Assembly (NCBI GenBank): GCA_021234155.1
Contig: JAJEKV010000027.1
Location: 3,842,623-3,906,622 of the forward strand
DNA length: 64,000 bases
Direction of reading: 5' to 3'
Origin: Isoetes taiwanensis
Lineage: Eukaryota; Streptophyta; Lycopodiopsida; Isoetales; Isoetaceae
A program made the position numbers and the translations under genes. Below, piece after piece: positions 6,530-50,724 of the stretch. A model generated the notes under the pieces. It saw only the letters and a program-made list of their open reading frames with translations. It was not told the origin of the DNA and searched no databases. Position 1 is the first letter of the stretch. Each line of letters opens with the position of its first letter.

Positions 6530-7104
6530 TAATTTTGTGCATTAGTGAGCCCATTACTATTAAGGTTTTTTCCCGAAAACCCTTCGGGGCGGGGTTTTTT
6601 AATCCTGATAGTAATCGGCGTCACTAATGTAGTCCAGGCCAGTGTGACTCTATTGCCGCTGGACACCACTATTGGGCACCAAGACTATGCATAATTGTAA
6701 AAAAGGAAAGGCACTAAGTGTCGGGACAGTGAGGGACCTCCGACCGACCACCAGGATAGAGTGGGTTCAACCTGCCGGCTGGTGTTCTATTTCCACATTC
6801 GAGCTCTGGTGCGCCAAAAACTTAGGGTTTACAATCTGACCCACTATTAAAGGTGGGACAGTGGAATCCACAATGTGTACAGCTCAAAGTTGTTGATAGC
6901 GAAGCATTCTCGCATGGCCACGAAGCCAAATATAAGCGGGGTGCTGGTATCAATAGAAACTAAGAAAAGCCTTCAGAAAAGGCTACAATATACCAGCGTG
7001 ATGTGCTGGTAGCACCCATCAGGGAGCTCGCCCATGCTACATAAGTCCACGGGCCTCAGGGCACAAGGGACAATAATGTATCTATCTATCTATCTATCTA
7101 TCTA
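6530..7104 (+). mobile_element. Non-LTR element end with hairpin and (TATC)n tail
   Basis: This stretch ends in about six TATC units (7079-7104), the type of 3' tail made by target-primed reverse transcription in RTE-like LINEs and their SINEs. An ENE-like hairpin sits near its left end (separate entry). At about 6768 'gggttcaacctg' resembles a pol III B box, but no convincing A box is placed upstream of it. The body does not match the LINE 3' end at 25.8-26.0 kb outside the hairpin, so it is a different family. The 5' boundary is uncertain. Confidence 0.5.
6540..6629 (+). ncRNA. ENE-like triple-helix hairpin, copy A
   Basis: Outer stem: 6540-6560 pairs with 6608-6629 (about 19 of 21 positions). 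Inside are AGG (6563-6565) and CCT (6604-6606), then a U-tract on each side (6566-6571 and 6595-6600) facing each other, then an upper helix CCCG/CGGG and a CCC-TTCG-GGG cap. Opposed U-tracts between GC-rich helices are the defining layout of the ENE, which clamps a poly(A) tail in a triple helix and slows decay. The outer stem sequence differs from the other four copies while pairing is kept. Confidence 0.75.
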
Positions 7105-7107
7105 TTT

Positions 7108-7870
7108 TTGTTGTCAACACAAATCGAAAAGATGATTACAAAACATGTGCTGGGAAAGTGGCATATGGAGAGTGTTGCACAAAAAAATAAGCTGAAAATT
7201 GTGCATTGCACATTTCTATCTAAGATCCTTGACAAAATATGTCTTCCCAAGATATTTAATGAAATCTTTATCGAAGTTCTCAATGATATTGGTGCTGATA
7301 TAATGGATAGTACTATATGTTCAGCTGGAGATATATCGAAAGTCTTAGGGACCTTTGCTATAAACCTTATCAGGTGTTTGCTGCTGACAAAGAAAATATC
7401 TGCCCTTGTAGCAAGCAATATATCATTAAGCTTGTTGATAAAAATGTAGGACATGTGGTTACCACTGATACTAAGATCGTGTATAATAAGGCACTAAGAG
7501 GCATTTTCCAAAAAGGCCTCAATCACATCCCAAACAGAATGTTGATTATGGAGGATTTTCAGGATGATATTTCCAAAGTGTGTGATGCTATATTTGATCT
7601 ACATATCTATACATATCCGCACATTAATGAGATCGACAAAAAGTTTATTAAGGAATGCATTGTGAAGGAGGCCAGCTACCAAGTAACAGAGGCTATTAAA
7701 ATGGAAAAACCTCAAAGGTTCATATTAAATGACACATGTGCTACAAGCAACCTAGATTGATTGAATAAAAACCTGTATATATCCGGGGTTGATAAAGCAG
7801 CCAATAACCCTGCATACAATTGCCCAAAATACATCAAGGAGCTGGCATACATAGGGCTCAATAGCTAAAG
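7108..7870 (+). pseudogene. Possible Penelope-like reverse transcriptase N-terminal fragment
   Basis: Two overlapping frames (7108-7449, then 7317-7760, readable past a stop to about 7870) give a protein-like stretch. It contains 'CPCSKQYI', then 'GHVVTTDTKIV', 'LRGIFQKGLNHIP' and, beyond the stop, 'VDKAANNPAYNCPKYI'. The order Cys-x-Cys, GHV(I/V)T, LR..(F)xKG and DKxxxNxxxxCxKxY is what I associate with the region before and at the start of the reverse transcriptase in Penelope-like elements. No YADD-type motif or endonuclease is present, so only the N-terminal part survives, with at least one frameshift and one stop. It begins right after the (TATC)n tail of the preceding element. The family call is a judgement from motif memory. 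Confidence 0.4.
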
Positions 7871-8019
7871 GGGTTTAGCACTACTGACTTAAAGAACTAC
7901 CTATGGAACTTACTAGCTACTCTAACATTAGCCATAAATATACCTTATATGGCTTATTATTATAAACATATACTTAATAAAAATAGCCGTTAAAAGTTAA
8001 TGGTGTACTATTAAACGGT

Positions 8020-9801: not shown

Positions 9802-11225
9802 ACTAGTACCAAAGTCTTACATTCTATTTACAGTTTGATGGAAGAAGCCCTGATGGAAAAGCCAAATAGCAATGCAGATAGGGGGGTTTCTAGATTTCTA
9901 AAAAATAAAAAATGGTAATACAAGCCGGTTCCTAACATGTCACTAACCACATCTTCAGATAAGGGACCACAACAATATTTATAAGTGCCATTGAAAACTT
10001 ATGGTACCAGCTATTTCCTGATAGGCTTGGAGCTAGCATACATGGGCGACCATAACACTTACAACAGGACATTTAAATATATTATGGTTTAAAGAAAAAC
10101 ATGCTTTTTATTGACTGAACAAAAGCAAGAACGCGCCAAACAGGTTGAGCATTATGATATTAAAAGTATTTTCTTTGATGTTTTCAAAAGTCTAAGCAAA
10201 TAGTATTATTTTTGAATATCAGGCTTAAGGTGTACATCTGATTCATTTGAGTGATAGTATCAGAAAAGCAGACAGTGACCACAGTATAAAAAAAGATGCA
10301 CCCTAAGATTGGGTTTTCCATTACAAATCATTCTATGGAAGGAATACTGACAAGTACCCATCTGGATTGTTTAATAAAAATGGTTCTCCATCTTTAGCAT
10401 AGAATTAATCCTCTGTTCCTTTTAAACATAAGGCTAAGAAGGTGCAATGAGTGACCGGTGATAAACCAAGAGACTCTATGTACCTTATGGCCCTGGATTT
10501 GTTACCATTTTCATGCTAACAAATTCTTGGTTGGCTGCAGGTACGAACGTCTCTCTTCTCATTGCTCTTTTTTGTCTGCTGTTCGAAGGGAACTTTGAGG
10601 GAATAGTACTACTGTCAAAAGCTTTGATTACCAATTGTAGATGCGCATCTAACGTTTTATTCGGTCTGCTGATATGGTTGCATGTTGACCTTAATGATGT
10701 TTTGTTGAACCATCACTGGTATGATATACTTAATTTTTGGCTACTTAAGGCATAAATATAAGAGGTATAATATTCTCCAACTTTCAATATATTGAAAAAA
10801 TGTGATGTCCTTCATTAGTAACAGACTGTTTTTTGAATTTACGAATTATGTTTAGCATATTTGACAGTTCATATAACTAACAGTTCTAAGTATATTCTTG
10901 TTTAAACATATATTTGGTTTCGACAGCCTCTCATGAGTCTAATAATCGACATATGCAGTTACATGGTATATCCACCTTAAGTCTGTGCTACAGAATGGGT
11001 TTAAAATAACAATTTGTTTCTTGTTTAAATAGAAAAGGAGAAACCTTTGATGAAGACAATTCTTAAAAGATTAACAATTCGAGTAATCGATTTCCAATTA
11101 AAGGCAGCTAGTGTTATGTACTAGAAGAAAGAAATATGATACTCTAATAACAACAAAAGCTAATTTAAATACGTCCATTAGCACCTAATGAATTTTACAA
11201 GCTTTGAAATAGTGATTGTTTAATA
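9802..11225. other. AT-rich gene-free stretch
   Basis: I see nothing supportable: scattered short frames, no splice-consistent coding and no clear repeat structure up to the start of direct repeat R2. Confidence 0.5.
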
Positions 11226-11843
11226 GGGAGTCCAGTCTGGATATCCGATTCATTTGAGGATTATATATGAATTATCATCAAGTAAATTGTTTCTATTTCT
11301 GCCTTTTGGTGACTGATCAAAAAAGATAGGCCAGTTACACAAGAATTATGTACAGGGTTTAAGGGATGAATTAATGCATTGAATTGTTTCCCAGATCATT
11401 GTCTATTAATGTAAAGGTTATGAACATGGATCAAAGGCATTAAGTACTAGACTAGCAAAGCCAAAGGCTAGTCCTGGATTGATAAGATTGCTTAGGGATT
11501 GACCGAAGCAGATGCAATTCTAAAGGCATTTAGTTTTGGCTGGTTTTTTTTTTAGACATTTCAATTCACTAGTTTAACTGGTGTGGCTTATGTCTTTGGT
11601 ACACAGTAGTGTTTATTTGGCATACTTGACTATAAATTATATCTCTCTCGTACTCACTGTTTTCTTGGCATTCACAAAAACAATATGATGATAATCTATT
11701 TGAAGTTATACCTCCCACATGGAACAATGAGCTGATAGCCCTGGGATATGGAGGCAGTAAAATCGAAATCCCTAAAGCAGCAGTGCAGACCCTAATGTGC
11801 TGTGTAAAGGAAGGCAAGGTGCATGAATATTTACTGGAAAAGG
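11226..11843 (+). repeat. Long direct repeat R2, target of the copia insertion
   Basis: Near-identical to 2752-3369 and of equal length. It ends at '...ctggaaaagg', immediately followed by the 'TG' of the copia 5' LTR. In R1 the same place continues 'aaatcactaaaaagg', so the copia element entered this copy. The expected continuation is not found after the copia 3' LTR, meaning the right flank was rearranged later. Confidence 0.85.
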
Positions 11844-12455
11844 TGAAGTGGTTATCATGTAATAATTGTTTGATGGAAATTCATCTAATTCTACAAGCTC
11901 TAACCTATGAGAAGCAGTGGCAGTAGGTTATAAGTTATACAATCATTCATGAGAAGCAGTGGCAGTGAATGCAAGTGAAGAGAAAAGCATCTAATTTGAA
12001 AATGGGCGCTGCCTGTGTTTGAGGCGCTTAGAATTCAATTTTAAAGCTGTATTTCGCACTCAGCGCCCAATATCTTTCCGTCGTATAAAATACGCGTGGA
12101 AAAGAATACGTGTGGAAACCTGGTTAGGTTTCAATGGTTCGGAGGCAATGTTTCTTTATATATACGCCTGTGGGATATTAGGGAATATAGAGGAGGCCTG
12201 GATTGGAAAGTTTATCAGCCTCTGAACCGCCGGATCTACATAGAACAGTTATATATATGTGATGAATTATGCCTAATGTCTATCATCCAGATGCAGAAGC
12301 AATAATGTTGTTCTGATACTTCATCTTGTTTGAGAAGGTGTTTAAGCTTATTAAATTATGATTAATGCAGCATAAGGGATTAGTGACCATTTTTTGGCTT
12401 CCTTATTGCTTGCAAAGATAAGTTGTATAAGAATAATTTTGCTTAAATACTTACA
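11844..12455 (+). repeat. Copia 5' LTR
   Basis: Starts with TG (11844) and ends with CA (12454-12455), 612 bp. Positions 11844-12330 match 25289-25766. The primer-binding site follows one base later. A TATA-like 'tatatata' at about 12160 may belong to the element promoter. Confidence 0.85.
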
Positions 12456-12456
12456 G

Positions 12457-12468
12457 TGGTATCAGAGC
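12457..12468 (+). promoter_or_regulatory. Primer-binding site (initiator Met tRNA)
   Basis: 'tggtatcagagc' is the standard 12-nt primer-binding site of plant Ty1/copia elements, complementary to the 3' end of initiator methionine tRNA. It lies one base after the 5' LTR. Confidence 0.95.
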
Positions 12469-12482
12469 ACAGGTGATCCAAG

Positions 12483-13469
12483 ATGTCAACTAGATTTGGT
12501 GCCAATTTGCTGGCAACTATTGAAGTATTTAAAGGTGATACAGGTTTTCAAATTTGGAAGGAAGGAATCAAGTCAGTTTTGGAGTTTGAAAATCTTTGGG
12601 GTTTAATTGATGGCAGTACATTTGCCATGGCCACCTCAGCATCTCCTACAGGGTCTGGGAATGTAAGTACTAATCCAGGAGGTGGTCCAACAGCGAGTGC
12701 AAGTGCAAGCTCTGGTGGTGTTTCAACTGCAGCTTGTGGAAGCAGAAGCAGTCCTACTGTTCAAACAGATGCCACAAAAATAATGGAGGCCCAAGCCATT
12801 ATCATAAGCAAGGTTGGAACTGCTTTGAAGTTGAAACTAAGAGGTAAGCAACCAAAAGAGATGTGGGAATATTTGATTAAGCACTTTGAAATTAAAAGTT
12901 CTTCTCAAATAGATGTTTTAGAAAAGCAACTGAGAAAACTTAAATTGTTTGAGAAAGATAATATTACTGAGTTTATGGAAAAATTTGAGTCCATATTTGC
13001 AGACTTGGAAGGTGCAGGTTCTATTCTGAATGATCAAAATCAAATCTTGTACTTGGCCAAGTCAGTTTCTCATAACACTCATTTAGCTACATTAATTAGA
13101 AATGTGGCTACTAGTAAAGAGCATGCTATAAAGATGATCCAAACTGAATTTGAACAAACCCGAAGGGGATTTGATGATGAAGAACAGTCTCCAGAAGTGT
13201 TATATAGTGGAAACATCAAAAGAGGTGGAAGTACCTCAAGAATGAGTAAGGATAAAATAGGGCCATGCTTTAAATGCAATCAGTATGGCCATCTGAAAGC
13301 CAAAGTATTCAGATGCTTTAACTGTGATGGTAAAGGACATTTAGCTTCAGAGTGTCCAAGTCCCAAATCCTCATTTGGAAGAGGCAGAGGTTGTGCCAGA
13401 GGTGGAGGCAGGGGGAGAGGAAGGAGTCAGCCAAGCTTGAATTTGGTCAAAGAGGAAGAAACTGATTGA
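12483..13469 (+). CDS. Copia Gag with zinc knuckles
   Basis: 328 residues starting 15 bases after the primer-binding site. Residues ~100-230 carry the UBN2-like copia Gag region ('LRGKQPKEMWEYLIKHFE', 'LRKLKLFEKDNITEFMEKF'). Two CCHC-type zinc knuckles follow near residues 260-300 ('CFKCNQYGHLKAK', then 'CFNCDGKGHLASEC'); the first has lost its last cysteine. A Gly/Arg-rich tail (RGRGCARGGGRGRGR) ends the protein. The knuckles package element RNA. An Ala/Ser/Gly-rich insert at residues ~48-90 is unusual. Gag ends at a stop before protease, so Pol is not in the same continuous frame in this copy. Confidence 0.9.
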   Translation: MSTRFGANLLATIEVFKGDTGFQIWKEGIKSVLEFENLWGLIDGSTFAMATSASPTGSGNVSTNPGGGPTASASASSGGVSTAACGSRSSPTVQTDATKIMEAQAIIISKVGTALKLKLRGKQPKEMWEYLIKHFEIKSSSQIDVLEKQLRKLKLFEKDNITEFMEKFESIFADLEGAGSILNDQNQILYLAKSVSHNTHLATLIRNVATSKEHAIKMIQTEFEQTRRGFDDEEQSPEVLYSGNIKRGGSTSRMSKDKIGPCFKCNQYGHLKAKVFRCFNCDGKGHLASECPSPKSSFGRGRGCARGGGRGRGRSQPSLNLVKEEETD

Positions 13470-13515
13470 GGTAAAATGTAATCATATCTCGAATAAAGTT
13501 CTTGCTTCAAAATCT

Positions 13516-15785
13516 ATGCATGACAATTTTTGTGTGATAGATTCAAGAGCAACAAAAAATGTAGTTTTCAAGCCAAGTCTGCTACAAGATTGTGTGAAGA
13601 AAGATGGGCATGTACAGCTAGGAGATGGTGGAGTTCAGCAAGTAAAGGATGCTGGTGTTCTAGAACTTTTTGATTTGAATGGGAAACCTGTAAAACTCAG
13701 AGATGTATTGTGTGTGCCTGGTTTAGTGAGAAATTTAATTTCAGTAAGCCAACTTGTTGATCTTGGATACAAAGTTGTATTTGAGAAACTGGAATGTACG
13801 ACATTTCAAGATAATGAAATTAATTGGCAGACGTGTTGGTAATTTGTTTGGATTTCATTACAAACATATTCCATGTCTTAACTTCATTGAATGTGCATCC
13901 AAACAAATCTGGCACAACAGACTTGGGCATACAAATTTCAAGAATCTTGATATATTAGAAAGGAAAGGCTTGATCACCATGTCTGCAAATAAAGAAGAGA
14001 ACATTTGTGCTGGATGTATGCTTGGGAAGCAAGCTAGACAAGCTTTTAAGAAGTCAGCTCACAGGTCAAAAAGAATATTGGAGTTAGTTCACACAGATTT
14101 GTGTGGACCTATTAATGTAACTAGTATATCTGGATACAAGTATTTTATGACATTTATAGATGATTTCAGTAGGAGAACTAACTGTTATCTATTGAAATCA
14201 AAAGATCAAGCTCTAGATGCTCTTAAAATCTTTGTGGCTGAAGTAGAGCTAGAAACAGGAGCTAAGATCAAACGTATTAAATCTGACAGGGGTGGTGAAT
14301 ATCTGTCAAATGAATTTAAATGGTTTTGTGCTTCCAAAGGTATTAAAAGGCAGCTTACTTGTAGATATTCTCTGCAGCAGAATGGAGTAGCTGAAAGAAA
14401 AAATAGAACATTACTAAATGCTGTAAGATCTATGTTGAAATACTCAGGACTGCCAAATTTTTTGTGGGATGAGGCATTGAAAACAGCTGTGTTGATCCAA
14501 AACAGGTTACCTTCTGTGAGCATCAATGGAGCCATACCTGAAATGCTATGGTCTGGTAAAGCTCTATCTTTTGATAAATTTAAAACTTATGGGTGTTTGG
14601 CCTTTGCACAGGTTCCAGAAGAAATAAGGAAAAAGCTTGATGATCGATCCTATACCTGCTATCTGATAGGTTATGATTCAAATTCTAAAGGATATAGGTT
14701 GTATAATCCAGCTCAGAGAAAAGTCATTGTTAGTAGAGATGTGGTATTCTCTGAAAACCAGTTCTATAAGACCATTCCAAAAGTAAACACTTCAAATGAC
14801 ATGGAGACTATACATAATCAAGCAAGGACTGGTAGTTTATATGAAGAGCCACTGAAACATGCAGAAAAATCCAGTGAAAAAAATCACACTAATGTTGCAG
14901 ACTTTAGTGATAATGAAAGTGAGGCAGATCTTAGTTATACATCTCAACAGGAATCTGCAAATGTAACTGAGCCAGCTCAAGAAAGACCTTCAGAAGAACC
15001 TTTAGAAGAAGTTCAACATGCTCATGAACAAATATTAGAAAAACCCAGAAGAAAAAAAGAACAGAAGCTCAGATATTGAAGGATGAAAATAAAGATACTA
15101 CATTGTTTGGAAGAGATGCTCATGGCAGAAGTAAAAGATTATTGCCAATTGAGGGGGAAATAAATACAGTGTTTGATATTCTAATTCTAGAAAGTGAAGA
15201 GGCTCCAAAAACCTACATTGAGGCTATAAGTGGCAAGCATAAAGGTGATTGGAAAAAAGCTATCGAAGATGAAATGAACTCATTTCATAGAACTAATATC
15301 TATACTCTAGGGGACAGACCTGAAAATAAGAACATTATAGGAAGCAAATGGATATACAGAATTAAACCTGGAGCTGATGGGAAATCCAGAAAATACAAGG
15401 CTAGGCTTGTTGCTCAAGGGTTTACTCAAAAAACAAGGTCAAGATTTTGATGAAACATTTTCTCCATTGGTGAAAATTAATAGTCTTAGAATTCTGTTAT
15501 CAATTGCAATGAGGACTTAGAAATTCATCACATGAATGTGAGCACAACATTTTTTATTGCTAAGTTAGAAGAAGAAATTTATTTAAAACCAGCTCCAGGA
15601 TTTGATGAAAATGCAGATAAAGTTTGGAAGCTAAATCGAGCTGTGTATGGTTTAAAACAAGCTCCTAGGGAATGGTACAAATGCATAGATGGATATCTGC
15701 TTGAACAAGGGTTTGAGAAGTTTATATGTGATGGTAATCTCTACAGATTCAGAAGTGGAAATGAATCAGGGATGCTTTTATTTAT
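13516..15785 (+). pseudogene. Copia Pol, first part (protease, integrase, RT start)
   Basis: Protease begins at 13516; its active site reads DSRAT where the family has DSGAT. After a frameshift near 13820 comes integrase: a His-Cys zinc domain (H..H near 'WHNRLGHTNF', then 'CAGCMLGKQ') and the DDE core ('HTDLCGP', 'SDRGGEY', 'AERKNRTL'). A stop near 15077, a frameshift near 15430 and another stop near 15520 precede RT motifs 'GSKWIYRIKPGADG', 'YKARLVAQGF' and 'YGLKQAPREWY'. Coding breaks off at 15785 in 'GMLLFI', where the inserted DNA begins. Multiple lesions mean this copy is dead. The remainder of RT and the RNase H are at 24288-25262. Confidence 0.92.
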
Positions 15786-16453
15786 TTTTTCAATGCAATT
15801 TATATAGAATGGTTGGCGAATGTAAAGAAGAATAAGATTAATTTTAATGGCGAATATGTCAAATAATCCATCTCTATTCATCAGCATTTGGCGAATTTGA
15901 AGCTTTATAATTCAAAAATATTAATCAAGTACATTTATAACTTATGCTCAAAGTAGAAATGGGTTTGATCCCATGAAATACATTACCTGCAAATGCAACA
16001 AGGAAAACTCTATCAAGTCACACAAATCTCAAGGAATAACTTGCAGACTAACTTGTGATGCTCAAAAAAACCAGTGTCTGTATAAATCAGGATGAATACT
16101 AGAACTTTAGTCACAGGAACCTATAGAATAGGGGGCGAATGCGCTGCTGTCTTAGATTCGAATACATGGCGAATGTCTTCTTAGAAGGACAACTTCGTAT
16201 CAACTCAGGGCGAATATTCTAATAAAAAATATGATATGTAACCTACTAAACATTCGTAGGAAATTTTTGAAAATCCCTAAATATTCGTTCTGGGAAAGGA
16301 CTCGCGAGAGACACAAAACCGGCCGTAGATAGGCTTGTCATTCATCACAGCAGCAGTATACAATGTATAAGAAGAGAGAGGGGTAGCCGAACATAGGAAC
16401 AATATCGGACTACCCCAAAAAAAGAAAATGTGCTAAGGCATGATAAGAGGGCA

Positions 16454-16534
16454 ATGGCGACAAGTTCTCATCGGGATAAAAAACCCCGCCCTTTCGGGTT
16501 TTCGAGGAAAACCCTAATGAGAAATGGTCGCCAC
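16454..16534 (-). ncRNA. ENE-like triple-helix hairpin, copy B
   Basis: On the minus strand the outer stem pairs 16517-16534 with 16454-16471, with a 3-nt internal mismatch. The core reads GGG, U4, CCUCG, AAAA, a CCC-GAAA-GGG cap, CGGGG, U6, AU, CCC. The cap is a GNRA tetraloop where copies A, C and D have UUCG, and the lower helix is GGG/CCC where they have AGG/CCT, a compensated change. It lies ~160-240 nt from the minus-strand 3' end of its host element. Confidence 0.75.
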
Positions 16535-16825
16535 CAACCTCGAATGTGGTGCCTAGAGAGCAGAGAAAACCTGACGAGCCAAGGCAAACCGAAGCACGAC
16601 CCCAAACAACCGCTAAAACCCCATGTAACAACGAGGATGACGAATCGGAAACCAATAGGACCCCAAAAGCCGGTGGAAGATAGCGAAATCTCAGAAGACC
16701 AAAAACTCAAAAACACCCGTGAAGAGTCGAAAACAAGCCTAGCCATAAAAAGAATCCGCATCAAGAAAGCTGGAAGAGATAAGGCATAAAAATCGACAGA
16801 AAAAGAGCAGAACAAAAAAAGATAG

Positions 16826-18284
16826 CGTCACCGACAAGGTGGAAAAAGCATCACCCAGCGGGTGGAAAACATGATATATAAAGATGCATCACCCTCAAGG
16901 TGGAAATAAACAGCATCGCCCGCAAGCGGAGAAAAACACAGGAAAATGCCAAGGAAACAGCAACAAGGCAAAAGCGACACCCACAAGTGAAAAACCACAA
17001 AAAGAGCAAGGACCAATACTAATACAAATGAAAAAGACGTACACGCCCACGCAGTAGGGTGGGAAGGGAGGGAAGCTACGAGCACGAAGAAAATGCTGCT
17101 GTGAGAAGACGCCGATAACCGGCCTGAGAATGGAACTAGCCTAATATAGGGGCTCGTCCTTTCCTGCATGGTGATCCGATGGCTCGGATCGATGGGATTC
17201 GGGAAAGGACTCGCGCGAGACACAAAACCGCCGACTACCAAAGGACTTCCTTAACTATAAACCCAGTGGCCGCAAACCTCCAAGTGTTGAGTAGGGTCGC
17301 AGCGACATTTGTGTGGAAGGAAGAGTGGAGAGAGAGCTAAGACGACGCCAAGGTGAATCAAAATCAAATCGAAATCCAAAGCGCAAGATAGAACTCCAAG
17401 TCAAGAATGAGGAGAAGTGCCCCAACCCCTCCCCGCACATCCAAACCCGTGATACCGCAGGAAAAACATCGGCGGAGCACTACTAGATCATGACAGAAGA
17501 GGTTGTAGACTAGGTAAAGTGACGGATTAAAAATAAAGCTAGGGCCATATATAGGGTCCGAAATACTAAAGCAAAAGACAATAGTGGACATGATAAAGGA
17601 ACCAAAAACGAATGACAATCTAAGGGACATGATAGAAAAATAAGAACGCTGCTGAAATGTAAAATATAAAAGAACGCCGAATGATAGGGCCGAATGAATG
17701 TGCATGACGGCGAAGCGCAAAGTCGCACAACAACTCAAATCGATGTGAGCTTAGTAATGAGGAAATCAACAATACATGAAAAGAGAGATAGCATCACCCG
17801 GAGGGTGGAGAAAAAGCCGCCACCCAAATGGTGGAAGAAAACCGGGATAAATACAAATTGCCGCCCCCATCGGGGGGAAAGAAACAACGCCACCCACAAA
17901 AAATAGTCCAAGAGAAACTCATGTCACAAAATTGCAAAAAACTAATATCCGCACATCTAATCATAGCGAAATAGCAAATATGATAAATAATAATAGCACA
18001 ATGCACGATGATATCCCAATACACCGTGAACAAAGAGCTCAACGGTTAGCTAGAAATGTATGCCCCGACAAATGATGCATAAGGATAGCATAATGCACAA
18101 TGCACAATGAACAAAGATCACCCGCAGATGGAAATAGCATCACCACCATGGTGGAAAAAGCGGCACCCAATCGGTGGATAACAATCATGTAAAAAGAAAT
18201 ATGCATTGCAAAATAATGCTAGACAATGGTATTTACAACATCACTAAAGATAATAAATAGACATGAATGTCACCATCACGGTGG
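16826..18284. repeat. Array of small CACC/GGTG hairpins
   Basis: At least eight short stem-loops recur with similar flanks ('gcat' before, 'gaaa' after). Left and right arms: 16829-16832/16838-16841; 16852-16856/16860-16864; 16890-16893/16899-16902; 17795-17799/17803-17807; 17820-17824/17830-17834; 17864-17868/17872-17876; 18143-18148/18149-18154; 18164-18167/18173-18176; 18271-18274/18280-18283. One at 16920-16929 is CCGC/GCGG and one at 17864 is CCCCC/GGGGG, so base identity changes while pairing is kept. Loops vary from 3 to 5 nt. They span segment X, T and the start of Y of the LTR-like element. Function is unknown; protein-binding or packaging hairpins are possible. Confidence 0.6.
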
Positions 18285-18639
18285 AAATAAACAAAGACCA
18301 CCCAACAAAAAAAACGGTCCATAAAAAACGCGACATCTAGAGAAGGATAAAGCATCAATGTAAAACCATAAAAAAGAACATCAAGAACACGAAAACTAAA
18401 AGTGGCCATTAGAATGTGCCCAATATAACAGCTTGCGTATAACTACGTAATACACGCCATGCCTAGATAAAGAGAAGCATAAAAAGGAAAAAATGATTAA
18501 ATATAAACCCATGTCGGACAACAACGTAGGACACCCCATATCTTTAAAGAGAAGCATAAAAAATGAAAGATAATCCAATATACACCCATGTCGGAAAATC
18601 TCAATGCAGTGCCAAACGCAATATGCATCCTATCTAGAT

Positions 18640-18731
18640 AAAGCCAAATAGCAAATATGCCAAAGATGATAAAGCCAAATAGCAAATATGCCAAAGATGA
18701 TAAAGCCAAATAGCAAAATACGCCAAAGATA
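18640..18731. repeat. 31-bp tandem repeat, three copies
   Basis: The unit starting 'aaagccaaatagcaaatatg' begins at 18640, 18671 and 18702. The third copy has small changes. It lies in non-coding segment Y. Confidence 0.9.
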
Positions 18732-21700
18732 TATAATGAGCATACCAAATAGAAAAGATCCGCTACAAGTGAAAAAACCCTCAATAGACAGCTAGAAGGC
18801 CAGCGACCGTGAGCGCGCGCAGCATCATGTGGAACCCCCCGAGTGGCAGCCGCCGAGGCCCCGTCGCGACGAGCAGAATGAGCACCATACTGGAACGGAT
18901 TTAAGCTGAAAGCAAGAAGATACACCGTCACCACCTCCAAGCAATCGGATAGGATAAAGGACGTAGAGAGGCGAAAAAGAGGGCTGCCATAGGTGCAGAA
19001 GGATAATGACAGGGCATGCAAACGAAGGCAAGCGAGCTAAAGAAATCGTATGAGCACGGGCAAGTGGGTCTCGCTTTGAATGGCGGGGGAGAAAGGGAAC
19101 CGTGGTCCGGCGAGTCCGGTTCAAGCGAGAGGGAAGCCGCATTGATTGACGACGAGAACCAAAGAGCCGCCGAAAGCCGCCGTGGAGAAAAAGTGAAGTT
19201 GAAGAAGAAGAGCCGAAAAGCACCGCTATGGATCTGTATCACGCTCAATGACCCCGAAAAAGGGAAGGACATTAGAGAACAAAAACAATGATAAGAAAAA
19301 GACGCCGCCACGATGATGAATCGGGAAGCGCCCGGCATGCCAACGAAACGCAACAAGGCGATGAAAAAATAAACCACGCACGCGCATAATGCACATATGA
19401 TATGAATGCGCATCACGAACGTATGTCCGTGGATAGTTGAATGTGGCTACGGACCAAGTCCGTGAATGTGGCTATTATTCCTTCAAACCGCGGGCCAATA
19501 TCTAGAGGGAGATAAGTCAACAAAGGAACCCTTCATCATGGATCCTTAAAAAGAATAAACAATAACGATAAATAAGAAGGCAGAATAACAAGTAACTGAG
19601 ATAATAAGGCAAAGAGGAAAAAACGTACGCATAGGAATGTAAAAATGCATAGACATAAAGATCGAACGAAAAACATGGAGATGTTGAGTAAAGTCGCACA
19701 CCACGTAGCGAGCACGAGAGGACGAGGACCGCCAGCAACCGTGAGTACGAACCTCAACATGTATACCCTGTGTATTGAGCAAAAAACGGAGGAAACGAGG
19801 AAGAATGATAAAAACTATGGGCTAAAAGAACATGGAAAGTCACCACGTCTAATAAAGCAACGTCTCGAAACTTACACAATGATTATGTAATATCATATAT
19901 AGTGAACAAAGCTATGCACGAAAAAATAAGCCTACTACGAACATGACAAAGTGGAGCTAACGAAAACAATGAAGCTCCCAAATCCATAAAATTGGTACAC
20001 CGAACAATATCACCCATGTGCAAGAACAGAAAATACAACTTCAGGAAACAACAAATAAGTGCGCTAATAAAGTGAACAAAGGAACCCACAAACACCAAAT
20101 ATAGAATATACATATAAGAAATTTAGCCACAAAGGACAAAGAGGTGAATAGCAAATATGATGTATAATGGTAGCACAATGCATAATGATAGCGAACTAAA
20201 AATGAAGTCCCCGAAAAAAGACAACAAAAAGTTATCGTTAAGCCCAAGCAGAAATACGAGAAAAAGAAGAATGTAAGCCAATGAACAAATCAATAAGAAA
20301 ATAACCACGCACAAAGAGCCCAACAAAATGAGAAAATGTAAAACACGGTCGCCAACGTAAAAAAAGCGTAGAATACAAAAATGATCGACATAGGCCAAAA
20401 GATGAAATCAACGCGCCAAAAAGCGAACATAAATAGGAAAAATAATCCGAATAACACAACAACCGCTGAATAGTGCGAGCATCAAGATCCCATGGAAAAA
20501 GACAATGGCAAAAGAGAACATAAAGTTTATAAGATCATGCTACATAAAAAGAAACCACGTGGGCAACTAAGACGAAAAATGTAAAAGGAACATATGAAAA
20601 GATATACGCCACCCAATCAAGAACCCCATTACAACCCAAATAGTATAAATTGAGGGCCTCAGAGAATTGAAAACATCCGAATAACATGAATGCAAGTCAT
20701 TAACCATATTCATCCCTGTATGTTGCAAAATAAAATACACATGTAAAAAAGCATCTCATGAAAAATATGCCAATTATCAATCCATAACCATACTCAAAAG
20801 AATTAATGCCAGGAAATATGGATAGCAAACAATAGCCTAAAGTAAGTCGATAAAATTGTGGAAAGAAGCAAACCTAGAATGGATACCTCACCTGGGGCTC
20901 AACTTGTATAAAATGCGACAAAGAATGTACGCCCCAAGCCCAAAACAAACACGTCAAAAAACTCAGCCCCCATGGCAAGAGCCTGGACTAAGGAAAACAT
21001 CCCCTATGGACTGAATAAAAGAAGACTTTAAAAGGCCACAAAGGAACTTCCGCTAGAAAAATGGCTCAACAAACTAATTGTCTACATTGAGGATCCGAGA
21101 ATTTTGAAACGAGAACGCCCAACCCTGGAAGACCACCAACCTTCTACCAAATTTATAATTAGCAAATATAGCTCATATCCAAACCCAAGGAGCAAACCCA
21201 AATGATGATAAGATAAACTGCAATTAAATACCTACCAAATGAAAAACGAAGCATAAGTCCAGATGCAAAAATTGATAGCGATGACATACATATAAGAAAT
21301 TTGGTCCAAAGAAAATCAAGCGATTGATCAAGGCGAAGAACATGTCGCGGATGAAAAAGACGAAAATGGCAAATGCATACATGATCGAATTCAAGCCGGA
21401 TGAGCCCCGTCAAAAATCAAACCCCAAATCCATTGATATGAACTTCCGTAAATAATGGCAATAGGAAGTGGGCAAATGTATCATTTTATTGAAAACTTCG
21501 TAAATAAAAACTCATCCATATAACACCTAGAGAAATAAATGCAGTTCTCAATCGACCTCCCCGCTAAAAAGAAAATGCAAAAATAAGTAAATGTCCTTTA
21601 TACAATTAACAAGTCACAACAACATGATGCAATATCCAAGAAAACCCATTTGTAAATGTAGGATGCGGTGTATATGTAGACAATATGAAGATATGTGGAA

Positions 21701-22101
21701 AAACAAAATGCATATAGGCAAACATGAGAGCGTCCACTTGGACTCCACGACCTGCAAATGCAAAGAGGCTAGATAGCTGCATGGAGTGGAAGAACTACAT
21801 TGCAACAAAGTGAGCTAAAATGGACTTGGAATTGCAAACCCGATGGTGGAAAGAAGAAAAGCAAATTCTAGACATGATCTAAGTAAACTAAAACTACACA
21901 TCCAACCGTTCCCTCGATCATCTTTTGGCGGGCGAGAGCCGGGCAAATTAAGAAAAGGAAGAACAAGAAAAGTCGAGGCTAAATGTTGCATCCCACCTCC
22001 GTTCGCCAAGATGCCCCACCAAACCGGGCCGAAATCCAACCTAACAGAGGAGAATGGAGAAAGGAAGCCCTGATCCGGATTCCGAGAAAAACAATGGCGT
22101 A

Positions 22102-22157
22102 TGCTTAGGCTTAGGCCGAGGCCGAGGCTTAGGCTTGGCTTAGGCTTAGGCTTAGGT
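22102..22157. repeat. GGCTTA/GGCCGA hexamer repeat
   Basis: About nine hexamer-like units of 'cttagg' with 'ccgagg' variants. It resembles a telomere-type repeat only superficially: the usual plant telomere unit is TTTAGGG, and no such unit is present. Confidence 0.85.
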
Positions 22158-25262: not shown

Positions 25263-25278
25263 AATCTCATTATTACAT

Positions 25279-25288
25279 GAAGGGGGAA
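25279..25288 (+). promoter_or_regulatory. Polypurine tract
   Basis: 'gaagggggaa' directly precedes the TG of the 3' LTR, the position where plus-strand synthesis of copia elements is primed. Confidence 0.85.
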
Positions 25289-25775: not shown

Positions 25776-26016
25776 CTTTTTACACAACTTCCTGCGTCTC
25801 TCGTTTGTGTCCTACGGGACGGTCTTGAACTGTCCTATGCAATTGTACAGTGTGCCAGCATGCTTATTACTGCTAAGGTTTTTCCCTCGAAAACCCTTCG
25901 GGGCGGGGGTTTTTTAATCCTGTCAGTAATATGCTTGCTGCTCTCTTTTTGTTTGGGTCCCATAGGCCAATTGGTCTCCGTGGACGCTAAAAACCTATTC
26001 TATTCTATTCTATTCT
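25776..26016 (+). mobile_element. 5'-truncated RTE-like LINE 3' end with (TATTC)n tail
   Basis: The segment 'ttgtacagtgtgccag' through the hairpin and on to 'gggtcccataggcc' and 'attggtctccgtggacg' matches the 3' UTR of the minus-strand LINE at 44.1-44.5 kb, including the end of that element. It finishes in about four TATTC units (25996-26016), a short-tandem-repeat tail rather than poly(A). It is therefore a heavily 5'-truncated copy of that LINE family, or a SINE sharing its 3' end. Confidence 0.7.
25856..25940 (+). ncRNA. ENE-like triple-helix hairpin, copy C
   Basis: Outer stem 25856-25872 pairs with 25924-25940 with one or two mismatches. Core: AGG, U5, CCCUCG, AAAA, CCC-UUCG-GGG cap, CGGGGG, U6, AAU, CCU. 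The upper helix CCCUCG/CGGGGG is six pairs with one U-G. It lies about 55 nt before the LINE 3' tail, the expected place for an element that clamps a 3' A-rich end. Confidence 0.8.
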
Positions 26017-32603: not shown

Positions 32604-32766
32604 ATTGTTTCCCAGATCATTGTCTATTAATGTAAAGGTTATGAACATGGATGAAAGGCATTAAGTACCAAACTAGCAAAGCCAAAGGCTAGGCCTGGAT
32701 TGCTAAGACTGCTTAGGGATTGACCGAAGCAGATGTAATTCTAAAGGCATTTAGTTTTGGCGGGCC
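32604..32766 (+). repeat. L1 3' end, shared with repeats R1 and R2
   Basis: 32576-32761 matches 2881-3066 and the corresponding part of R2. It follows the ORF2 stop and is best read as the L1 3' region. It ends at a long T run (32769-32788), which is the reversed poly(A) of the next element. Confidence 0.75.
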
Positions 32767-35860: not shown

Positions 35861-35865
35861 TTGTA

Positions 35866-42200: not shown

Positions 42201-42240
42201 TGCAACTGCACTTAAAAAGCTTCTAGATTAATTTGTTTAG
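39213..42240. other. AT-rich intergenic stretch after TGD3
   Basis: I see no gene. Short frames (for example 41706-41915) lack domains. A short 'ggtggtaaatggtaat' repetition lies at about 40045-40077. The 3' UTR and poly(A) site of TGD3 should lie in the first few hundred bases but no signal is decisive. Confidence 0.5.
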
Positions 42241-42249
42241 TTTTTAAGT

Positions 42250-44104: not shown

Positions 44105-44202
44105 TTTAAGAAAGAAAGAAAAAAAGAAAGAAAGATTTTTATCGTCCACTAAGACCAATCGGCCTATGGGACCCAGAAGGAGCGCGACAAACTTATTACT
44201 GT

Positions 44203-44500
44203 CCGACATTGAGGATGAATCTCATACCCTTCAAAGTTGCCTAGCATATGATCAAATCCAGACGCGCTATGTTGAGTTGGTCAGGCCTGGCCAGCCACTA
44301 CATGTGGCATTGAGCACAGCTTTCGTACGGATGCTGGGATCATACCTTCAGGAGGTCATGGACATGCGAGATCAGCTATGTCCTCGGGCACACATTTGAC
44401 ATGTACATATACATATATTTCATGATGATGTATACCTGTACAGTATGGCAACATTCTTATTACTGCCACAGTTTTTCCCTCGAAAACCCTTCGGGGCGGG
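44203..44500 (+). other. Inverted segment inside the RTE-like LINE
   Basis: The minus-strand ORF2 runs to 'CQCGQMEV' and stops at 44501. Its continuation, 'DIEDESHTLQSCLAYDQIQTRYVELV', is on the plus strand from ~44203, followed by 3' UTR and the left half of an ENE-like hairpin ending at 44500. The right arm of that hairpin is on the minus strand just outside (44188-44201). Flipping 44203-44500 restores both the reading frame and the hairpin. Confidence 0.8.
44449..44500 (+). ncRNA. ENE-like hairpin, copy D (broken by inversion)
   Basis: Left outer arm 44449-44465, U5 tract at 44472-44476, CCCUCG, AAAA and the CCC-UUCG-GGG cap are present up to 'ggcggg' at 44500. The second U-tract is lost at the breakpoint, and the right outer arm ('acttattactgt' on +) is at 44191-44202, on the other side of the inverted segment. 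As it stands it cannot fold as an ENE. Confidence 0.7.
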
Positions 44501-47500
44501 TTAAACTTCCATTTGGCCGCATTGACAAAGCCTGTCCTAGCGTGACTCACCAATCCATCTGCCCATCTCAATTCGAAGATGATGTGCCCCTGTGCGAATG
44601 GAGGCAATGAGTCTGCACCTTTTCATAGGCAAGTGGGTACGCAGGTAGCATTGCGGGCCGCATTCCAATGTGGGATTTATGTGGCGTTGGTAGTATGCTA
44701 TTTTGACCTATTCAAGGGCATTGGCATCCTAGAGCTTGTTGAGGAAGCAAGCGTCAAGATATTGCCTTAAGCTATGGCAATCTGCATTTGTTTGCACACG
44801 TACGCACCTGTGCTCCTGCACATTCCATCTAGCCAACCATTGAGCTCTCTTTTCCCTCCAGCAGGCCTTGAGGCACTGCAGCCCCATTGCCATGATATAA
44901 GCTAGGTTAGGGAGACGCGCATCGTCCATATTGACCACCTTCTTAAAATAGACAATGTGGCGATCAAGGGCCGCCCTATAAAGAGGCAAGAAACATGTCT
45001 CCTGCAATAGAATTTGATATGGGACTGTGAACTTCACCCCTAGTGCTCGTACCAAGAAGGCTTTCTGCACCTACTCTAAGTCATTCCAGGTAGCGGGCCC
45101 CATACTTCAACCCCGTATAAAAGGACAGGCTCCAATAAGACCTTGAACAAGTGCGATTGATGGGCCCAATTTCATACAACTCTGCTTTATGATTATTGTT
45201 TTGCATCGTATATAGTGCCTTCCAGCCCGCCGTCACTCGTAGCCGTATGGATGTGTCCATGTGCATAATCGAAGGAAACTCTACTCCCAAATATTTTTAT
45301 GTGGGTGCCACTTCCACATTCTGCCCTCGGTAACTGAAGGAGGGGATACTCAGCTGACGTGAAGATGATATGAGGACCACCTTAGTCTTGGCCAGGTTGA
45401 CGCGCATATCAGTCGCTTGGCTGAATGTGTCCAGGGCATTGAGATGGCACTGCATGTCCGCTGGTGTGTAAGCTAGGAGGTCCACATCATCAGCATATAT
45501 TAACTGCCTGATGATCTGATGTAGAAGGTGAGCTCCATCACCCCCATTATCAGCAAGCCAGCTCTCCAACTGATCAATGTAAAGCCCAAACAATGTTAGG
45601 GAGGGAGGGCAACCCAGATGAACCCCGATACTACTATCAAATGGTTGGCTTGTCGGCTGCAACCATTCCGAGCATCTCTCATATAATCTGTACACTGCAT
45701 TCTGCAAATCTACAGGAACCCCCAGTTGTCGCAATCTTGCGCATAGTTTTTCCCGAGGCACAGTGTCAAACGCCTTCGCAAAATCCACGAAGCAACAATA
45801 TAGGTCCTGCCGGCGGTTCCTGCTGTCTTCAGCCAAAGTCCCCAACGTGAAGATGTGGTCAATGGTTGAGTGCCGGGGTCTGAATCTTGCCTGGGTGAGA
45901 ACCCGTACCTCTGTTGCCTCTGCCCAACCCATCAATTGCTGCTCGAGAATCCCAGCGAGCAGTTTTGCAAACACCGAACTGACCATGATTGTTTGCTAAT
46001 TGGCTGGGTAGTGCGGGTCACCTGCCTTATAGATGGGAACAACTCTGCTATTGGTCCACTGCAATGGGGAGCCTTCCTGTAATGCCTTGTTGAACAAGGC
46101 AGTCAGCACTGGTACTATGGATGGCCCTGCCCACTTGAGCAATTCTGCCTGCATACCATCCAGGTCTGGCGCTTTCCCATTGGCAAGATGTTGTAAGCCA
46201 TGGTCCATGTCTGACTCTGTGATTTCCAGCACTGGGCCTTCTTGCAGGGGTAATGCTGCCTTTGCACCTGAGGCTCATATAGATGTTGCAAGTATTGCCT
46301 CCACTGCTCGGGAGTGATGTTTCCTATGGGCTGTACTGGCTTTCTGAGAACCCTTCGCCAGAAGGTCCTGGGTTTATGTTCCAAGAGGTAGAACATTTCC
46401 CTTTGATTCGCTGTGATGTATCTGGCTTTCTTAGCTTTAAGGAAGACGCAATACTGTCTGACTGCATGTGGGCGTAAAGCAGGGTCTGTAACCTGGCGGA
46501 GCCAGCATTTGTGTTCCTTCCACTCTGCATTAAACCATTGATTATGGGCGAAGGTTGTGGTCCTGGAGGTCCGTCAAAGGCGGGTTATACCAAAGCACCT
46601 TTCCGCAGCAGTTCTAAGCACATGGCCTGTCCGTTGCTCTAGTGTAGGGTACTGCAAAATTTCTGCCAAGTCATCTACAAGCATCTGGGCATATAAGCCC
46701 TGCATGTTCATAATCCAATCGCAGCTGAGGCATGTGAGGAGTTGTCGCACAGGGGGTTCGCACAACCTGCGAAGCCAGCTTCAAGTAAAGTGGTAGGTGG
46801 TCTGAATTGATCTCTTCTTCCCTATTAGATGTTCCCATCTGGAAGTGCTTGACAACATGCACATCCTGCTTAGGCAACAACACATAGTCCACCACACTAG
46901 ATCCTCCCCCCTGGTTTTCCTGCCTGCAAGTGCTCTTGCGGGTAGATGGCCACTGTGCCAGTCCATTGCAGATTATCAGGTCAAAGATTCCACAGAGCAA
47001 AAGCAATTGCCTACCATAGCGCATGACCTGATTGTCATCTGATGTCTGTGGCCAAGCTCCTTATGCAGGACACAGCTGCAATACATCATCAGTCAAGGGA
47101 TCAAATCTCATGGGTTGTTCTACCCCGGTGCATGCATTGAAGTCTCCAAGGAGTACGACACTGCCCAACTGCTTATGCTATTGTATGTCATCATATAGAT
47201 CGACATAGGGGTCCACCCTATCCACATCCGAGTGGGCGTGATAGAAGTTGCTTCCTGCATGTAGAAAGTACCAGGCTGCCACAAAAAGAGGTCTGCTACC
47301 GCAGTTTTGCACATGCACCCATAGGTACCAGTTGTGGCTGTCTGTCTTGAACAAGGAGATTGATCGTGCCAATCTTGTCCGGTGGTAGTAGGGCAACCCC
47401 CCACCCCCCAATGCCCCCGCTTTCCTGTGCAATCATTGAAGATTGAGTAGCGCTAGTATCCTGGAAAGTGGAGTATCTTGTGTCCTGCATGCTCCCATGT

Positions 47501-47599
47501 TTCCATGAGGAAAATGAGATCCATGTCTGCGGCAACCAAGTTGAGACTATCTCCCTTCTGGCTAATTTAGCAAATTCTTGCATGTTATATAGATTGTTC

Positions 47600-48123
47600 A
47601 AAGCTGTGGGCAAAGGAGGAAGAGCGGGCAACATCCACTTTCCTTTGTTGCAACAAAATCCATTCACCTCTACGTTGAGCAGTGGGATATGACAATACGT
47701 GCACCTCTTATTCCACGAGCACATCATATACGTACGACGTATTGCCTTATTCATGTGCTGTGCACGAGATCGCCAATGTGTCGAGGCGCTTGCAAGACTT
47801 ACCACATGTGAATCTGAATCTGAATCGCCTCCTGCACAGACTTGTTCAACATATTCTCTTTCTTCTAACATACCTTCGGTGCGTTCTTTATAGCGTTGCC
47901 TTTCTTTTTCTAGTAATCTCCCCTTGGCTTCTTCAGTTAAGCCTGCTCGCAATGCTCTTCTTGTTTCTCGCCTTTTTTCCTTATCTGCCTCAGGCTCGCG
48001 TGCACGAAGTTCTCTCTTCCTCTCTCGTATTCTCTTCCTATCTTCTTCAGGCACATTAGCAAACCACTCTTTCCGAGGCATAATTCCAATACCAACGGAT
48101 CTCTTTATATTTTGATATAGCAA
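47600..48123 (-). pseudogene. Helitron Rep/helicase N-terminal fragment fused to LINE
   Basis: From the ATG at 48121-48123 on minus, an Arg/Glu-rich charged region ('RKRIRERKRELRAREPEADKEKRRETRRALRAG') is followed by 'CTYCHIPLLNVEVNGFCCNKGKWMLPALPPLPTAL'. A C-x2-C pair, a CC pair and 'LP.L...P..L' are the features I associate with the region before the Rep domain in plant Helitron proteins. No HUH nuclease or helicase follows: the frame passes at ~47600 into the 5' part of the LINE endonuclease region and stays open to 47296, giving 275 codons. The Helitron was therefore interrupted by, or joined to, the LINE. Confidence 0.6.
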
Positions 48124-49625
48124 TGTCTACCAATCCTTCATTGAATGCAATTTATAAATGTACCACAGAAGGGGGGATGGTAGAAGTGGAAGCAGCATGA
48201 GATGTGCGAGCACCAGAAGGTGAGGCAACTGGAGCAGGGCGTGCGACTGTAGCAGGCGAATCAGGGGCATGGTCAGGGGCTGCTGGAGGGTTCGCAGTAT
48301 TCGCAGCAGCATTTGACGGCCTAAAGATTTAAGTAAACACACAAATTTAAAGTACACAAGATTTATTCATTGTGAACTTAAAGCTTGAAGGAACAACTAA
48401 ATTGTACCATCAAGTGATATGCCAATTTGATGAATACACAATACCCATTCTTGGAGCATTGTTATATGTCAAAAGGTAGCACAACATGACATTATGGATA
48501 CTCTTGATACTAGAAAAGTATGTTTGCATTTTGCGTTCACATTAGCTTTCTTCCATATGACGATATGTTTCACCTTCCAAATAAAAAATAATAAAAGGCA
48601 TGATGATTGTCCTCCAAAAAGATAAAGGAACAAATACTTTTTATTTAGTTAAAGTATCAAAAGGGAGTAAAAGTGACGTTTAATAGACAATGAAGCACAT
48701 CCCTTCTCAGCCAAGCAATTTAAGAACATTATTTTCCAACTTGAGGTATGATATTAGCCGTAGAAGTTAGCGACATATCTGACCTAGCATAGCGGTTAAA
48801 TGATGGAAAACAAAGTATTCTAAAAACGACAAAACATACTCTCCTATTAGGGCAACTAAATGTAGTCATTTATATGACTAAATGTAGTCATATTAAATTG
48901 ATCATAGAGGAATAAGTAGATCAATTGGAAGTACATATAGGACATTCAATAACAACATACTGGGAACATAATAGGACAAGCAAGTCTAATTAACGTGTTG
49001 ACTGAATAAAATAAATGAACTCAATTTTACAATGTGCAAGAGTTGCAAATTGATAAGTGGTTAACAATTTAAAAGGCATAAAATCTACATCAGTTGTTAC
49101 TATGTATGTTATTTATGTTGACATGTATGGACCCATATTGGTACAGAATTGGCGGTCTTTGTTCACATGTCCCAATCCTAGCCCATACCATATGTATGGA
49201 ATGTAAAGCTTACCCTATCAGGTGTAAATACCCCATAGGTGATGTAGAAGAATCGTGTATTAAGTGGTAGTGTGAATTTATATTAGATATTTTAAACGAG
49301 GTGCGCCCTAGACTACCTCAGATCGTCAAATTTGTTAGACCTACGACCCAGACCATATGTGGGCTAAACGAGGTGTGCCCTAAACTTCCCGGATCATTAG
49401 ATCTGTTGATTCTACGACCCAGAGCATATGTAGACGTCTGTTGTTTCAAATATGATCTTGTTTGAGATGCCTATGATTTTGAAATATCATATACAAAGGT
49501 TCAGAAAGCTGCATATAGTTTTGAGGATATGCTATACGAGGGATCTATGCATTACAAGCACTCGAACCCCTACCCCTAATAAAATCCATTTGACTAATAC
49601 AACCCACAACTGAACGTGATTATTT
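48124..49625. other. Gene-free stretch with a ~70-bp tandem duplication
   Basis: No gene seen. At 49292-49363 and 49364-49432 two diverged copies of a ~70-bp unit lie head to tail; both start 'aaacgaggtg' and include 'acgacccaga'. The rest is AT-rich with no recognisable element borders. Confidence 0.6.
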
Positions 49626-50724
49626 TAGAATGGGGCTCGCTAGAAAATGACAAAAACCTCCCGATAGATAGGCTTCTCATTCATCTCAGCAGATTTTCTA
49701 CAATGGTGGATAGTTGGGTAGCCGCACACATGCGAACTACCCACGAAAAAAATAAAGGGAATGCCCAATTATACAACTTGAACCCATGAAATACAATGCT
49801 AATAGATGTTTTGTTTTTGTACCTGCCGAAAGCTTATCACCGGGATTAAAAAACCCCGCCCTTTCGTGTTTTCGAGGAAAAACCCTAGTGATAAGCCTTC
49901 GGCAAGGGGCTTGGACAAACGTAAGGCTGAGAATTCGCTCCCAAAACCCACGAATGGAGAAGTCGAACCTGCTGCCGCTTGCCAACCTGTACCTGCACAT
50001 CACCAACACTAGAACAAATGTGACAAAACAAACCTCCCAAAGCGGAGGGGCTGATCACGCGTGCCATGCGACAACAAAACAAAAACCTCTTCAAATAGAG
50101 GGGCTGGTCACGCGTGCCAGGCGACAAATATATTAAATAATTAAGGGGGGGAGGGTGGGTTTCAAAGAATAGAGAATAAGGTACTGCTGAGAGAGAAGAG
50201 AAAGCGCCGATGAGACGTTGATGAAGAACCTCGCCTAATATAGCGATCTCCCAACCAGAAAAGGCATGCACCGTATGCATGCATGCAAGACATGCATGCT
50301 CGCCCCCTCTAGAATTTCGATCCGAGGGCTCGGATCGATGGGATTCTAGAATGGGGCTTGCATGAAAACGACAAAAACCTCCCGAATGGAAGAGAATTTC
50401 CTTAACAAAACGGGATCGAGGACGAAGGTCAAAGGATTATGGCTAAAGAAGAGGCAAGGCCGAGAAAGGACATGCCACAGCATGAAAGAAACGCCAAATT
50501 GGTCAATCCAACCAGGGAGATGCCCCTCCCCTGCATGGTTTCAAAGAATAGAGAATAAGGTACTGCTGAGAGAGAAGAGGAAACGCCGATGAGACGTTGA
50601 TGAAGAACCTTGCCTAATATAGCGATCTCCCAACCAGAGAAGGCATGCACCACATGCATGCATGCAAGACATGCATGCTCGCCCCCTTTAGAATTTCGAT
50701 CCGAGGGCTCGGATCGATGGGATT
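49626..50724 (-). mobile_element. Non-coding LTR-like element with repeated ends (small form)
   Basis: Same order as the element at 16291-24240: A (49626-49670), X, T (50160-50345), A' (50347-50391), Y (to ~50538), T' (50539-50724). A and A' start 'tagaatggggct'; T and T' are ~186 bp with about ten differences. Each T ends with a perfect 8-bp hairpin CGATCCGA/TCGGATCG (50318-50337 and 50697-50716) eight bases before its end. Flanks at both sides offer 'atttt', a possible 5-bp target duplication. There is no coding content. The two elements share T and A motifs only partly, so they are separate subfamilies. Confidence 0.6.
49822..49907 (-). ncRNA. ENE-like triple-helix hairpin, copy E
   Basis: On minus the outer stem pairs 49888-49907 with 49822-49840 with one or two mismatches. 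Core: GGG, U5, CCUCG, AAAA, CAC-GAAA-GGG cap, CGGGG, U6, AAU, CCC. Only the cap stem is slightly weakened (CAC for CCC). Its host places it ~195-280 nt from the minus-strand 3' end, the same relative place as copy B. Confidence 0.8.

Follow-up and report, generated by a model that had tools for sequence, protein, structure and literature searches.

Hairpins resembling the element for nuclear expression (ENE) in several kinds of mobile element of the quillwort Isoetes taiwanensis

A stretch of 64,000 nucleotides (nt) from the quillwort Isoetes taiwanensis (contig JAJEKV010000027.1, positions 3,842,623 to 3,906,622; hereafter the window) raises the question of what one and the same U-rich hairpin is doing in transposons of different types. 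An original prediction made from the sequence alone had placed five such hairpins here and likened them to the element for nuclear expression (ENE), an RNA structure with two opposed U-tracts. We find that the same hairpin is present in several kinds of quillwort mobile element, in thousands of copies, and we think it probable that these hairpins are ENEs of the single type in transposon transcripts, where they would take up an A-tract as a triple helix and slow decay, and that they have been inherited or exchanged as a module. The window copies, with their scores against a covariance model (R1) described below, are:

6540..6629, plus strand: intact ENE-like hairpin of family A, with AGG/CCU, a UUCG cap and U-tracts U6 and U6 (85.9 bits)
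16454..16534, minus strand: intact ENE-like hairpin of family B, with GGG/CCC, a GAAA cap and U-tracts U4 and U6 (74.2 bits)
25856..25940, plus strand: intact ENE-like hairpin of family C, with AGG/CCU and a UUCG cap (107.3 bits)
49822..49907, minus strand: intact ENE-like hairpin of family D, with GGG/CCC and a GAAA cap with one cap-helix mismatch (90.3 bits)
44436..44544, plus strand: broken ENE copy (33.9 bits), of which 44449-44500 is the 5' half, inverted

Five hairpins lie at the positions first proposed, four of them intact and one broken. The core pattern, allowing up to three mismatches, matched four times in the window and not once in 100 shuffles, and the folding energies of the four intact copies lie 4.7 to 7.1 standard deviations below those of shuffled sequences, as against just 0.9 for the broken copy at 44449 (z -0.9). 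The two reverse strands tested also folded well (z -5.2 and -5.8), and therefore energy alone cannot assign the strand. Model R1 was built from 29 genome copies that included the four intact window hairpins and left out 44436-44544; when the window was searched it recovered all five, and the weakest match, to 44436-44544 (E 1.5e-6), is independent of the building of the model. Up to E 1 the model found no sixth hairpin in the window, the only extra row being a reverse-strand shadow of the 25856 copy (E 0.42).

The hairpins of the window are a small sample of those in the genome, which we searched over 1,658,258,908 bases in 1,110 contigs. A pattern that contains the cap, CGAAAACCCNNNNGGG, gave 10,657 matches (194 for the reversed pattern), and a cap-independent pattern that describes U-tracts opposed between GC pairs (GGTTTTTCC, 6-36 bases, GGTTTTTT) gave 13,303 (137 for the reversed control), which bears out the proposed ENE layout. 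In the first 100 of these 13,303 matches we read the cap types: 89 have a long cap, which in 82 of the 89 holds an AAAA bulge that the pattern does not require, and 11 have a short single-hairpin cap without AAAA, so that AAAA is not essential to the layout. Parsing succeeded for 80 of the 89 long caps and failed for 9; among the 80, the cap helix is CCC/GGG in 51 and CCT/AGG in 15, a paired change. Two hairpins, L063 and L071, have a longer bulge (AAAUAA and AAACAA, respectively) and extra G-rich bases ahead of the second U-tract.

Whether the pairing is maintained was judged from two overlapping alignments. Set 1 comprises 33 genome copies chosen because they match the cap pattern or resemble the 6540 copy, for which reason its cap letters are invariant by construction; set 2 comprises 29 copies mostly picked by the U-tract pattern, takes in more families and covers the basal and outer helix only. 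Within the core helices of set 1, 97.6% of cells are paired, and cells with a two-sided change number 77, where shuffles give 26.8 and sliding the helix gives at most 12; for set 2 the corresponding figures are 94.0% and 61, against 17.1 in shuffles and at most 17 when slid. Neither the number of two-sided-change cells nor the covariation score of either set was reached by any of the 500 shuffles or by any slid control. The counts of pairs with a two-sided change and of pair types were not above shuffles in set 1 (7 vs 6.2 and 23 vs 23.0, respectively), and showed a modest excess in set 2 (8 vs 5.7 and 20 vs 17.8). The basal G-C pairs that flank the U-loop, for which set 1 was not selected, are present in 33/33 copies at both positions (29/29 and 27/29 in set 2), and the upper helix has C-G in 31/33 at both near positions of set 1. 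The U-tracts are opposed, mostly U4-6 against U5-6 with single degenerate copies deviating (L011, L018), and one A, located three pairs down from the U-loop and outside both patterns, is bulged in every copy (33/33 and 29/29). Each aligned hairpin has one pair of U-tracts; we rejected a double ENE (dENE), as there are no tandem U-loops. U-G pairs occupy two positions on the listed strand in 25/33 and 22/33 copies of set 1; on the opposite strand they would become A-C mismatches, and therefore the RNA is most likely the strand given for the hairpins above.

Covariation was thus upheld once more genomic copies were aligned, and more strongly than five copies could show, as was the claim that the outer stems differ between copies yet remain paired. 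The change in step from AGG/CCU to GGG/CCC is seen in the genome alignments, where a third state, CGG/CCG, also exists, and the swap between UUCG and GAAA caps recurs among the genome caps together with UUCA. The general layout of a CCC-tetraloop-GGG cap helix stands, with one mismatch in that of 49822; a CC(C)UCG core had been ascribed to all copies, which is incorrect for the 6540 copy, as it reads CCCG instead.

The clearest setting of the hairpin is a clade of long interspersed nuclear elements (LINEs), to which the window contributes the following features:

25800..26016, plus strand: LINE copy, 5'-truncated, 3' end only, with ENE, 3' terminal motif, A-run and (TATTC)n tail
25989..25993, plus strand: genome-encoded A5 directly preceding the tail, about 69 nt downstream of the ENE
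44108..48126, minus strand: LINE with an RVT_1 reverse transcriptase (45297-45995), its extent inferred from open reading frames (ORFs) and similarity

The 25856 copy and its relatives are the 3' ends of this one clade (families being separated by their flanks), the copies of which are 5'-truncated; those loci that reach far enough have an RVT_1-type ORF upstream of the hairpin and on its strand. Judged by DNA position, the hairpin occupies the sense strand close to the 3' end, stopping 64-116 nt upstream of an A-run and tail, and the terminus is GGTCTCCGTGGACGNTAAAA or a close variant, after which come repeats such as (TATTC)n, (TTCC)n or (TTTC)n. A search with the terminal motif (as searched, including TAAAA) gave 10,028 genome matches and 0 in the control, and the first 32 of these, chosen without reference to the hairpin, served as a sample of its constancy. 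ENE matches were present in 21 of the 32, 13 by coordinate overlap with the pattern matches and 8 of the 19 others by the model, with E-values of 1.8e-7 or better (L081, the weakest, has a diverged 5' half). By eye, the other 11 appear 5'-truncated inside or below the hairpin, so all sampled copies reaching far enough seem to carry it, and the ENE-like hairpin seems to be a regular part of the 3' end in this clade. Among eight LINE loci, the hairpin windows and the 40 nt after them average 0.71-0.75 identity, with a drop to 0.44-0.55 over the 160 nt before the hairpin and 0.40-0.72 in the reverse transcriptase region, a comparison biased in favour of the hairpin since all eight loci were found by ENE patterns. 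An A-run of at least four stands just before the tail in 26/26 rows (20 distinct loci); it is A4-6, and just A4 in several subfamilies. The reverse transcriptase region has 39 relatives in a large protein collection, the best 48% identical and one of them from Chlorella.

Placement of the core in a LINE 3' untranslated region (UTR), as originally put forward, applies to two of the five window copies, those at 25856 and 44449. The latter belongs to the minus-strand LINE 44108-48126, inside which a segment of 292 nt (44207-44498) is inverted, and one breakpoint of the inversion cuts the ENE; the hairpin is broken because of this cut, and the second U-tract is absent at the inversion junction. 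A different LINE at 28870-32382 has RVT_1, a below-cut-off zf-RVT match and a poly-T stretch after it, and model R1 lists no ENE there. Elsewhere in the genome, locus L032 constitutes family E, and loci L033, L058 and L070 constitute family F, with reverse transcriptase similarity upstream of L070.

The other intact copies belong to elements of different construction:

6438..7105, plus strand: stretch common to family A copies, with the hairpin near its start, ending about 470 nt beyond the hairpin in a (TATC)n tail
16285..17199, minus strand: family B element unit, with a terminal hairpin and inverted-repeat ends
49622..50723, minus strand: family D element without a Pfam match, with head-to-tail 5' ends at about 50723 and 50345 and the ENE

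Family A copies have ~670 nt in common, ending in (TATC)n or (TATTC)n, and vary in their upstream parts. We rejected family A as a LINE, as searches with the window's LINE proteins and 12 relatives found no reverse transcriptase upstream in four fetched stretches or in window positions 1-7200. One family A copy has, about 4 kb upstream, an ORF for a pogo-type DDE_1 transposase that might be connected with it, and by eye 1 of 40 family A places is within 3 kb of a Helitron Rep place, which we do not count as evidence.

At the 5' end of families B and D a hairpin comes first and then a sequence that repeats the 3' end in inverted orientation, and the units often lie head to tail. A second 5'-type end of family B is found at about 24241, with about 130 nt common to both 5' ends. 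The region around 16454 and 49822 does contain direct repeats, of about 130 nt in B (17071-17198 and 24113-24241) and of 188 nt in D (at 50158 and 50537); however, these are the 5' ends of head-to-tail tandem units, and because of this we rejected a long terminal repeat (LTR) retrotransposon for both places. The label "LTR-like" given to one of these elements is accordingly dropped: no LTR was recognised around either copy, where the units have hairpin and inverted-repeat ends instead. By eye, no clear target-site duplication was seen for B and D, one B copy having a possible one of 7-8 nt. Seven of eight ORFs scanned in the B and D regions had no Pfam match, the eighth had a weak one below the cut-off (VEGF_C, E 0.013), and a ninth also had none. 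In the family D element 49622..50723 a TATA-like box follows each 5' end and GATGAATGA lies 157 nt after the ENE; among 16 distinct B or D copies, GATGAATGA or GATAAATGA is found 127-163 nt after the hairpin in 13 and an exact TATA-like box upstream in 5. Families B and D are possibly short non-coding transcription units. Their ends resemble Helitron-like ends; the genome abounds in Helitron Rep domains (1,813 candidates, of which 150 were scored), some of them within long open frames, and among the 150 scored no Rep gene was tied to the B and D ends. Copies of both families lack a tail, and the sequences shown also lack the LINE 3' terminal motif. By eye, some D copies carry A4-6 roughly 70-90 nt from their end, and no A-run was seen at the 3' end of families A and B. 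The spread of one core over different element types, namely the LINE clade, the (TATC)n-tailed element and the hairpin/inverted-repeat elements, is therefore as the original prediction had it. The family B element of the window sits in about 8 kb that interrupt a Copia element (11844-25763, with gag, integrase and reverse transcriptase pieces), whose direct repeats at 11844-12313 and 25289-25763 we read as its LTRs.

If these hairpins are ENEs, the GC helices on either side would keep their two opposed U-tracts open for an A-tract, most probably the poly(A) tail, which would enter the U-loop and build a short triple helix with at most four or five U-A-U triples; this helix would slow the deadenylation and decay of the transposon RNA. 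As the core is shared across element types while the outer stems have diverged but stay paired, it would have been inherited or exchanged as a module among LINEs, the (TATC)n-tailed element and the non-coding hairpin/inverted-repeat elements. The triple helix, the stabilisation of the RNA and the reason for the spread are what we infer from these data. In the LINEs the partner of the triplex would be either a poly(A) tail of the RNA that is not copied into DNA, or the A4-6 run, as in MALAT1. The following points weigh against ENE function. Most aligned copies were selected by ENE patterns or similarity, so that the letters of the pattern itself are invariant by construction. Rfam, searched up to E 1, gave no family for the hairpins and two unrelated chance-level matches only. 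The LINE copies end in the microsatellites given above and family A in (TATC)n, not in poly(A). Lastly, a closed fold, in which the first U-tract pairs with the internal AAAA, competes with the open one (open/closed, in kcal/mol: A -35.4/-33.8, B -35.6/-36.9, C -33.5/-27.3, D -41.9/-41.7); it is 1.3 kcal/mol better in B, and only 0.2 and 1.6 kcal/mol worse in D and A, respectively. A pseudoknot between the CCUCG loop and CGGGG, with the first U-tract paired to AAAA, was rejected by reasoning because the connecting loop would be too short.

The closed fold bears on an unlikely alternative, in which the U-loop is meant for an A-tract encoded by the element, as in MALAT1: either the A4-6 run of the LINEs, or the AAAA bulge acting as a lid until poly(A) displaces it. 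The constancy of the A-run before the tail (26/26 rows, 20 distinct loci), the AAAA in 82/89 long caps obtained with a pattern not asking for it, a U1:AAAA fold near the open form in A, B and D, and the A4-6 stretch noted above in some D copies would all fit; however, 11/100 caps are short and without AAAA, the run is just A4 in several subfamilies, no such run is present at the 3' ends of A and B, and closing costs 6 kcal/mol in family C. A related proposal, that in the LINE clade the ENE together with the A-run (or with gating by the AAAA bulge) forms a self-contained 3' end of the MALAT1 type, which other transposon classes adopted as a transferable module, appears unlikely. Another candidate function is that of a signal by which the LINE reverse transcriptase recognises its template (a 3' tail structure of the stringent type) and which other elements carry so as to borrow that enzyme. 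In the LINE clade the hairpin stops 64-116 nt short of the A-run and tail, it is found in sampled copies long enough to hold it (truncation judged by eye), and family A also has a microsatellite tail. We nevertheless hold this to be rather unlikely: families B and D keep the core without a tail or, in the sequences shown, the LINE terminal motif, a recognition hairpin would not require two opposed U-tracts, and the terminal GGTCTCCGTGGACG motif, being nearer the tail, would be the likelier signal for the enzyme.

It is also conceivable, but highly improbable, that the hairpin is an inherited palindrome with no role as RNA, kept by the youth of the copies, or a structure acting as DNA. Copies are indeed alike within a subfamily, reverse strands also fold well, and the counts of pairs and pair types are little or not above shuffles; the two-sided-change cells and covariation score that beat all 500 shuffles and every slid control, the strand-specific U-G pairs, and the hairpin identity of 0.71-0.75 against 0.44-0.55 upstream in eight LINE loci (picked by ENE patterns, which favours the hairpin) argue against it.

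Reading the hairpins as single-type ENEs invites comparison with known examples. The apical part of the quillwort hairpin (AAAA bulge and CCC-tetraloop-GGG) is not known from the ENE of PAN RNA, an RNA of a human herpesvirus (named in PMC12501189 and PMC10078130). The viral element has in common with the hairpins described here a U-rich internal loop between GC helices. In the ENEs of plant and fungal transposons (Tycowski, Shu and Steitz 2016) U-tracts are likewise opposed between GC helices near the 3' end, whereas the quillwort core occurs in a LINE clade and in elements without recognised LTRs, and includes a bulged A and, in most copies, a bulge of AAAA below the tetraloop cap. A recent study puts the known ENE motifs of plant transposons at around 200, said to be strongly associated with LTR retrotransposons, and describes the Arabidopsis element Evade (Copia93), which like the quillwort elements has U-rich internal loops with flanking G-C pairs, in its 3' UTR, and for which function has been shown: its ENE melts in two phases with A20 and needs the U-tracts and flanking G-C pairs, and its deletion in Arabidopsis lowers RNA stability and copy number (PMC12501189). 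The number of U-rich tracts differs: four in Evade, set in a long spacer ahead of the LTR (PMC12501189), and two in each quillwort hairpin. The MALAT1 ENE likewise has a U-rich loop; in MALAT1 an A-rich tract gives nine U-A-U triples (PMC11411715), and the run encoded downstream in the LINE clade is A4-6 only.

Among the titles listed by a literature search, none reports ENEs in Isoetes or in LINEs; the surveys of 2012 and 2016 lay outside that search, and we do not claim absence from print. New here are the apparent constancy of the hairpin at LINE 3' ends in a clade whose copies finish in a microsatellite rather than poly(A), a core common to several element types and the AAAA cap. Should these be working ENEs, one early vascular plant lineage would hold well over ten thousand of them by pattern count, the transfer of RNA-stability modules between transposon classes could be compared within a single genome, and the role of an ENE in elements whose inserts lack poly(A) ends would become testable. 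The covarying cap with its AAAA bulge is a structural variant for comparison with the known triplex.

Other repeats also occur in the window. Direct repeats lie at 2750-3049, 11224-11523 and 32445-32744, the first two 96% alike and the third 65%, and an ORF at 3162-4238, with no Pfam match, partly recurs near 11700 (by eye). A long inverted repeat at 60207-60295 has 43-nt arms that are 91% complementary, separated by a 3-nt loop.

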